Shown piece after piece: positions 4,645-6,841 of a stretch of DNA of 34,389 nucleotides. The stretch covers positions 1 to 34,389 of the forward strand of contig VBLP01000211.1 of assembly GCA_005887925.1 (NCBI GenBank), in the 5' to 3' direction. The notes under the pieces were generated by a model that was given only the letters and a program-made list of their open reading frames with translations, had not been told where the DNA came from and ran no database searches. How positions within the stretch are numbered: the stretch's first letter is position 1; each line of letters opens with the position of its first letter. The translations under genes were made by a program, and so were the position numbers. The DNA comes from Deltaproteobacteria bacterium (lineage in GTDB: Bacteria > Myxococcota_A > Polyangia > Haliangiales > Haliangiaceae).

Positions 4645-5478
4645 TCACCTGTCCGGGCTGGCCGGCGGCTTCGTGCGACGCTTCTTGGACTTGACCGGCT
4701 TGGCATTGTCCGACTTGGCCTTCGCGGGCCTGGCATCGTCCTCGCTCGGCCTGGGCGCGGCCGAGCCGGCCGCGTCGTCGGTCGCCTCGCCGCCGCTGTC
4801 CTTGGCAGCCTTCCCATCCGGACCATCCGGCAGCACGACCTTGCTGGGGTCGTAGTGCTCGGCGTCGGGCCGCGGGTTGTTCGGATCGTACTCCGGCTTC
4901 TCGAGCTTGCGCGAGCGCGCCGGCGTGTCGTCGCGGCCGGGCGGCAGCGGCCCCTCGAGCGAGCCGCCCGGCAGCTGCGACGGATAGCGGTCGACGTAGT
5001 ACTCGACCATCGACTTGGGGACGTCGCTGCGGCCGCGCGCGCCGACCTTGACCACGTGCTGGTTGGACGGCCACATCACCCAGGCCTCGCCGCGGCCGGT
5101 GATGCTGAGCAGGCGCGCCCCGGCGATCTTGTCCTCCTCGACCTGATAGCCGCTGTCCTGGGCGAGCCGGCGGGCGAGCTTGACGGTGGCCCGGACCACA
5201 CCGTCGGCGGTCTGGTAGCGGGTGACCGACACGTTGACCAGGTCCTTGTCGTCGATGTGGCCGCGCTTCTCGGCGTCGGCGGTGACGTAGCTCGCGCTGT
5301 AGGCCTCGGCCTTGTTGCCCTCGACCCAGACCTCGACATCGAGCAGCGGGCCCTGGAACCGCCGGAACTTCCACGAACCCACGTCGGCCTCGACCACGCC
5401 GCGCCTGGGGATCGGCGGCTGGCCGCCGCACGCCGACACCAGCAGGACCCAGGCAAGCAGCGCTCGCATGTTCGCCAT
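4645..5478 (-). CDS. Lipoprotein of unknown function with a basic Lys/Ala/Pro tail
   Basis: 277 aa from ATG 5478. The frame is open to a GTG at 5535 but that would put 19 hydrophilic residues before the signal peptide, so 5478 (MANMRALLAWVLLVSAC) or 5469 (MRALL) is preferred; AAGGGG lies six bases before 5478. The lipobox is VSAC, with Cys near residue 15. The mature N-terminal domain (about 150 residues) has alternating strands such as GPLLDVEVWVEGNKAEAYSA and GEAWVMWPSNQHVVKVG. The rest is charged and low-complexity, ending in a basic Lys-rich segment (KSKKRRTKPP). Divergent from metK with 59 bp between the starts. No family recognised. Confidence 0.75.
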   Translation of the reverse strand: MANMRALLAWVLLVSACGGQPPIPRRGVVEADVGSWKFRRFQGPLLDVEVWVEGNKAEAYSASYVTADAEKRGHIDDKDLVNVSVTRYQTADGVVRATVKLARRLAQDSGYQVEEDKIAGARLLSITGRGEAWVMWPSNQHVVKVGARGRSDVPKSMVEYYVDRYPSQLPGGSLEGPLPPGRDDTPARSRKLEKPEYDPNNPRPDAEHYDPSKVVLPDGPDGKAAKDSGGEATDDAAGSAAPRPSEDDARPAKAKSDNAKPVKSKKRRTKPPASPDR

Positions 5479-5537: not shown

Positions 5538-6841
5538 ATGGCCAGCTACCTGTTCTCGTCCGAATCCGTCACCGAGGGGCACCCTGACAAGCTGTGCGAT
5601 CAGGTGAGCGACGCGATCCTCGATGGTTGTCTCACAGTGGATCCGCTGAGCCGCGTCGCGTGCGAATCGGTGGCCAAGACCGGCTTCGTGCTGATCGCCG
5701 GCGAGATCACGACCAAGGCGCAGCTCGACTTCCAGCGCATCGTCCGCGGCGTGGTCCGCGATGTCGGCTTCACCAGCTCGCAGGTCGGCTTCGACGCCGA
5801 CACCTGCGCGGTGATGGTCGCGATCGAGCAGCAGTCGCCCGACATCGCCCAGGGCGTCGACCGCGGCGATCCGGCCCGGCAGGGCGCCGGCGATCAGGGC
5901 CTGATGTTCGGCTACGCCTGCGACGAGACCAAGGAGCTGATGCCGCTGCCGATCCAGATGGCGCACCAGCTCGCGCAGAAGCTCGCCGAGGTCCGCAAGA
6001 AGAAGACCAGGGGCATCGACTGGCTCCGCCCCGACGGCAAGACCCAGGTCTCGGTGCGCTACGAGAACGACCTTCCCGTCGGCATCGACACCATCGTCGT
6101 CTCCACGCAGCACTCCGAGGACGTCAAGTACAAGACGCTCCGCGAAGCCATCATCGACGAAGTGATCAAGAAGGAGCTGCCCAAGGAGCTCCTCGCCAAG
6201 ACCAAGTTCTTCATCAACCCGACCGGGCGCTTCGTCGTCGGTGGGCCGATGGGCGACTCGGGCTTGACCGGCCGCAAGATCATCGTCGACACCTACGGCG
6301 GCGCTGCCCGGCACGGCGGCGGTGCTTTCTCCGGCAAGGATCCAACGAAGGTCGACCGGTCGGCCGCGTACGCGGCGCGCTATGTGGCGAAGAACATCGT
6401 CGCGGCCGGCCTCGCGAGGTCGACCGCTCGGCGGCGTACTACGCGCGCTACATCGCGAAGCACATCGTCGCGGCCGGCCTCGCGCGCCGCTGCGAGGTGC
6501 AATTTGCCTACGCAATTGGAGTCGCCGAGCCGGTCTCGATGCTGGTCGACACCTTCGGCACCGGGACGGTCTCCGACGAGAAGCTCACCAAGGCCGTGCT
6601 CGCGACGTTCGACGCGCGCCCCGGCATGCTGATCAAGGAGCTCGATCTGCGGCGGCCGATCTTCCGCAAGACCGCCGCGTACGGCCACTTCGGCCGCGAC
6701 GACGCCGACTTCACCTGGGAGAAGACGCCGCTCACCGACAAGCTCAAGGACCACGCGCGCGCCGGCAACGGCGCCAGCAACGGCAAGACCGCCGCCGACA
6801 AGAAGCCCAAGGCCAAGCCGGCCGCCGCGGCGCGGCTCTAG
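5538..6841 (+). CDS. metK: S-adenosylmethionine synthetase, frame broken by an internal 68-bp duplication
   Basis: Makes S-adenosylmethionine from methionine and ATP. The first frame begins [10 protein letters not shown] and shows GHPDK (14-18), the [10 protein letters not shown] loop, [12 protein letters not shown], and [19 protein letters not shown]. After [24 protein letters not shown] the frame is lost. The same segment then recurs in another frame as [23 protein letters not shown], followed by [15 protein letters not shown] and the normal C-terminus with a Lys/Ala-rich tail. The two copies (6351-6418 and 6419-6486) are 68 bp each, so the frame shifts. Removing one copy gives an intact 411-aa MetK. 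As read, the first frame ends at 6632 after a nonsense tail. Since MetK is normally essential, either the sequence is misassembled here or a second copy exists elsewhere. No leader long enough for a SAM riboswitch is present. Confidence 0.9.
6351..6486 (+). repeat. Diverged 68-bp tandem duplication inside metK
   Basis: Copy 1 is 6351-6418 and copy 2 is 6419-6486, directly abutting. They match at 58 of 68 positions (about 85%) without gaps. Both encode the same conserved MetK segment, differing at only three residues (Ala/Tyr, Val/Ile, Asn/His); several of the base differences are silent. The unit is not a multiple of three, so it shifts the frame. Confidence 0.9.

Follow-up and report, generated by a model that had tools for sequence, protein, structure and literature searches.

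A mosaic metK with a 68-bp imperfect repeat in a metagenome bin most likely reflects a local assembly error

S-adenosylmethionine synthetase, MetK, is needed by nearly all bacteria and consists of three domains (PF00438, PF02772 and PF02773). The metK gene analysed here lies in a stretch of 34,389 nucleotides (C762:1-34389), hereafter the window, belonging to a metagenome bin (G000) of 12.2 Mb and 778 contigs that is 81% complete and 3.4% contaminated; its closest named match was found in a Kofleriaceae metagenome bin (locus L032, 71% amino acid identity), which indicates its affiliation only loosely. The gene resembles described metK genes in its three domains and in having the upstream neighbours of the same-genus loci but, unlike them, it is split over two reading frames, is mosaic in origin and has no continuous frame. 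Homology-facilitated illegitimate recombination leaves one end that is homologous and another that is flush, and the window is similar in having a seamless end in common sequence together with a flush end. However, such recombination would predict a single donor and a working metK elsewhere, and neither was seen in the window or in the bin.

Another type of event has been described in metagenome-assembled genomes by Chen et al. 2020 (PMC7111523), part of whose account deals with local assembly errors, that is, sequence that has no local support; these were suspected to occur more prominently when one particular scaffolding assembler is used, and duplicate sequence was described as remaining at scaffold joins although the flanks overlap. 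The window has in common with the errors covered in that part of the account what looks like locally wrong scaffold sequence, a duplicate at an overlap and a broken protein-coding gene. It differs from the second type described there, which keeps Ns, in that its join contains none and in that its overlap is diverged, as the filler looks foreign.

Analysis of metK (all positions are on the forward strand) showed an imperfect direct repeat of 68 bp, the copies of which abut at 6349-6416 and 6417-6484 and are identical at 59/68 bases (87%). A previous reading of the sequence alone had described two abutting 68-bp copies with 58/68 identical bases, which is what we obtained when the repeat was placed in the shifted phase 6351-6418 and 6419-6486. 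It had also claimed that the MetK segment encoded by the two copies is the same, read in different frames and with three residue changes, and this was confirmed by the translations (YAARYVAKN versus YYARYIAKH). Since 68 is not divisible by three, the frame that begins at 5538 departs from MetK at the junction 6416/6417, after which MetK resumes in the frame starting at 6419. Accordingly, the Pfam matches in the frame 5538-6416 comprised the N domain, the M domain and positions 1-60 of the C domain, and those in the frame 6419-6841 comprised positions 39-138 of the C-domain profile (S-AdoMet_synt_C); no single open frame spanned all three domains, the C domain being split at 6416/6417. When the codons of metK were shuffled (n=500), the best abutting pair with a period of 60-80 reached an identity of 0.583, and none of the shuffled sequences reached the 0.868 that was observed.

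Comparison with relatives showed that metK is a mosaic of, in this order, genus-like sequence, sequence similar to the metK of family f21, a tract fitting neither and again genus-like sequence. In the alignment with the 12 same-genus genes, the 5' part and the sequence from 6417 onwards matched the genus and the middle part did not. Over residues 1-175, identity to the 12 same-genus genes was 78-89% and genes of the genus filled the top ten places, whereas residues 176-293 were closest to a gene from another family (L021 of G039, 87%) and the best genus gene reached 75%. Read from 6419, the first 110 amino acids of the 3' part were 85-91% identical to the 11 genus genes found among the 14 best matches listed. 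When 6060-6416 was used as a DNA query against 317 genomes of the class, 286 of them matched, the best being two members of family f21 (G130, 88%, and G129, 85%) and G039 (84%); the same-genus matches, among the matches listed, were at 76-79%.

The position of these changes was followed in 60-nt segments. The best genus gene exceeded G130 in every segment up to 6018-6077, and the f21 gene of G129 was slightly above the best genus gene in two conserved segments at 5558-5637. In the four segments over 6098-6217, the mean identity to the 12 genus genes was 57-72% versus 95-97% to G130, and from about 6198 onwards conservation was so high that the genus and f21 differed little. We also scored diagnostic sites, defined as positions at which at least 9 of the 12 genus genes agree on one base and at least 2 of the 3 f21 genes on another. 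Of the 78 sites in 5538-6043, 70 were genus-type, 7 were f21-type and one was neither; in 6044-6310 there were 31 f21-type, 7 genus-type and 5 neither, and in 6311-6416 the sites were mixed (8 genus-type, 5 f21-type and one neither).

The native 5' part thus extends over 5538-6044, site 6044 also being genus-type. The first foreign-type site is 6056, so that the first switch lies between them (6045-6055), in sequence common to the genus and the foreign source; an exact run of 21 nt (6045-6065) is common to the window, genus gene L012 and G130. The tract 6056-6302 resembles the f21 gene of G130, to which it is 93.9% identical over 247 nt and with which it has a one-codon deletion in common. It ends with a block that is identical across lineages (6265-6302), an exact 38-nt run common to the window, genus genes L005 and L008, and G129, and the second switch is at the end of this block. 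The two runs are the longest exact ones common to the genus and f21 references at the respective switches, and both changes of source therefore fall in shared sequence; 21 and 38 nt are short for an assembly k-mer, which speaks against a pure graph walk, although the actual community members may share more. The tract 6303-6416, which fits neither the genus nor f21, carries the first copy of the repeat (6349-6416), 92.6% identical to L197 and 86.8% to the best genus gene. This copy is therefore not genus-like and forms the end of a longer, genus-foreign tract at approximately 6056-6416. The third join, at 6416/6417, is flush and has an overlap. The second copy (6417-6484) is native, with 97.1% identity to a genus locus (L009/L123), and belongs to the native 3' part of the gene, 6417-6841, which is read in the frame from 6419 and to which both the amino acid identity to the genus genes and the S-AdoMet_synt_C match refer. 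Comparing both halves with relatives, as the sequence-only reading had proposed, identified the 5' part and the 3' part of the gene as native and also revealed the longer foreign tract, which that reading had missed.

In an attempt to localise the source of 6303-6416, we found that its best matches among the compared loci were L197 (89.5% over 114 nt) and L198 (91.4% over 105 nt), both from genomes of the order that includes Achromobacter, which we take to be Burkholderiales; the best genus gene was 85.6% identical over 111 nt. Searches with 6285-6416 gave no closer source in its own phylum (334/377 genomes matched, best 85%), in 20 named genomes drawn from the 79 non-myxobacterial-looking loci L033-L111 (17/20 matched, best 86%) or in 300 genomes of the Achromobacter order (best 89%), and nothing was obtained at E 1e-37 in 13 genomes from the same family as G402. 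A good chance match is easier to obtain in the Achromobacter order, because 300 of its genomes were searched and the piece is short and conserved. In the genomes searched, the best identities were 94% for 6056-6302 and about 89-91% for 6303-6416, and the source organisms themselves were not found. Phage-borne metK was considered as the origin of the foreign tract and dropped, as the 57 phage records that matched were all at 60-80% identity and none covered 80% of the query.

The gene order on both sides of metK was compared with that of the same-genus loci. Immediately upstream, all 12 same-genus regions with a full-length metK, as well as the contig of G001 that carries the 5' part of its gene, matched the window in order and orientation, and in 11/12 regions the matches extended to genes at about 1.6-3.9 kb. 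Downstream, 7/12 regions (L114, L115, L116, L117, L120, L122 and L123) contained the genes that come next in the window, with their orientation preserved; in L119 the later genes had a different arrangement, in L118 and L121 there were none, and L124 and L125 ended soon after metK. As both flanks match the gene order of the genus, they point to a patch of about 360 bp between two stretches of one genus. The possibility that the left and right sides of the join come from different organisms was considered and found no support, the gene order of both sides fitting same-genus loci. The distance from the end of the metK match to the next shared gene was 3.0-7.8 kb in the seven regions versus 43 bp in the window, and this short distance may be due to a loss in the lineage or to another assembly collapse. 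In L115, the interval after metK encodes a Radical_SAM/SPASM protein and a protein kinase. The segment 6842-6902 of the window contains three near copies of a 14-bp repeat within the 43-bp distance to the next gene.

Signs of assembly were found in this bin and in its relatives. In stretches of 40 of the 778 contigs (564,707 bases) there were 27 runs of N with lengths of 1-344; such varied lengths fit scaffold gaps, and the assembly looks scaffolded, although withheld or masked stretches also read as N. Scaffolding, together with parts of one gene that trace to different organisms, fits a chimeric assembly. The window contained no run of N, which implies that any join there is closed. In G001, of the same genus, metK is cut between the ends of contigs C115 and C235 (L126 and L127), which have an exact overlap of 70 bp, and the alignment of C115 ends at window position 6302, that is, at the second switch point. 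In G131 (L145, C48, about 4690-4700), metK contains an NN join about 30 bases past the conserved block, together with a short overlap that is repeated. In the bin itself, a hydantoinase A gene on contig C620 is split by an exact tandem repeat (L186, 1749-2179) with a 172-bp unit and about 2.5 copies, so that PF01968 positions 1-148 fall in one frame and 92-290 in another; being exact, this repeat could be real slippage. A census listed 26 abutting tandem pairs in 599,096 bases of the bin versus 8 in 239,123 bases of relatives, with a period that was not a multiple of three in 8/26 and 2/8 of them, respectively. The rates are similar, so the census lends no support to a general excess of duplications. 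The bin has seven further pairs whose period is not divisible by three; the sequences of six of these were viewed and the frames were inspected around two (C620 and C300); no conserved gene was recognised by eye around the 245-bp pair of C300.

Taken together, these results suggest that the broken metK arose in a scaffolded metagenome bin through an error of local assembly or gap filling that left an overlap unmerged, and we assign to this reading, which is based on sequence comparison, a probability of about 0.86. Two native stretches of one genome would have been joined across metK, the gap between them being filled with metK fragments from other community members. The filler would change source inside blocks that the species have in common, and its last 68 bp would overlap the beginning of the native stretch on the right. 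Differing by 13%, the overlapping ends would have been left unmerged, so that both versions would stand side by side and break the frame. We infer that the joining took place in software and not in the cell. An assembly join is favoured because it accounts at once for a diverged repeat that breaks the frame and for a foreign tract set between native flanks, and the patchwork is most likely no real biological feature.

The other explanations place the event in a cell or between close relatives. Slippage in the organism that simply duplicated the segment in tandem, with the copies diverging afterwards, would give abutting copies in direct orientation, as observed. The second copy, however, is native and the first is most similar to other lineages and forms one piece with a longer foreign tract, and divergence in place would not produce such a tract upstream of the first copy; slippage thus retains hardly any probability, and its rejection in the sequence-only reading, on the grounds that fresh copies would be identical, proved justified. 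That reading had proposed instead a join between two metK alleles. A join of this kind between the same or closely related strains, whether in a cell or during assembly, would be consistent with two diverged copies that abut and with flanks from one genus on both sides, but the sequence upstream of the first copy is not genus-like (the genus mean over 6098-6217 lies far below the identity to G130), and 6056-6302 follows a gene of another family; we consider this join very improbable. The chimeric assembly of two related strains, which had been suggested along with it, is retained as to the chimera, the best supported explanation, and abandoned as to the related strains, given the similarity of 6056-6302 to the other-family gene of G130.

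Natural recombination between families would mean that foreign metK DNA entered the cell, aligned with the resident gene through homology near 6050 and became linked non-homologously at 6416/6417, leaving a dead gene with a 68-bp repeat and an intact metK elsewhere in the genome. One homologous and one flush end would fit homology-facilitated illegitimate recombination, and with 94% identity to G130 the tract is near a real lineage. Nevertheless, 6303-6416 does not fit an f21 donor and a second source seems to be needed within 360 bp, so that this route would require foreign DNA, probably from two donors, to have joined seamlessly at one end and flush at the other, and a further metK to exist. 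We looked for a second metK in the bin, as had been recommended, by protein search and with PF02773, and both returned just the two pieces of the window's own gene; a second copy could be missing from a bin that is 81% complete. With a query of 293 residues, 12 of the 15 same-genus bins had one full-length match each, one (G001) had the gene split over two contigs and two had none. In 11 of the 12 full-length genes the open frame had 418 to 471 residues, and in the remaining one (L013) it was open for 488 residues, where the contig ends. The breaks at the same metK block in G001 and G131 likewise point to assembly, and we regard natural recombination between families as unlikely. It is also unlikely that the mosaic is real DNA in which a short metK tract of another family, possibly from two donors, recombined into the essential gene, the second end being non-homologous and giving a 68-bp duplication that killed the gene while a replacement metK took its place.

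If an assembly error is indeed the cause, the locus shows how a conserved housekeeping gene in a public metagenome bin can turn into a patchwork of several species. A patchwork metK can mimic a broken essential gene or a transfer between families, and studies of trees, essentiality and transfer that rely on such genes could be misled; the mosaic would have biological importance only if reads confirmed it. With regard to the bin as a whole, its size of 12.2 Mb at 81% completeness compares with 4.8-9.8 Mb in the 15 same-genus bins, and it may contain foreign contigs.
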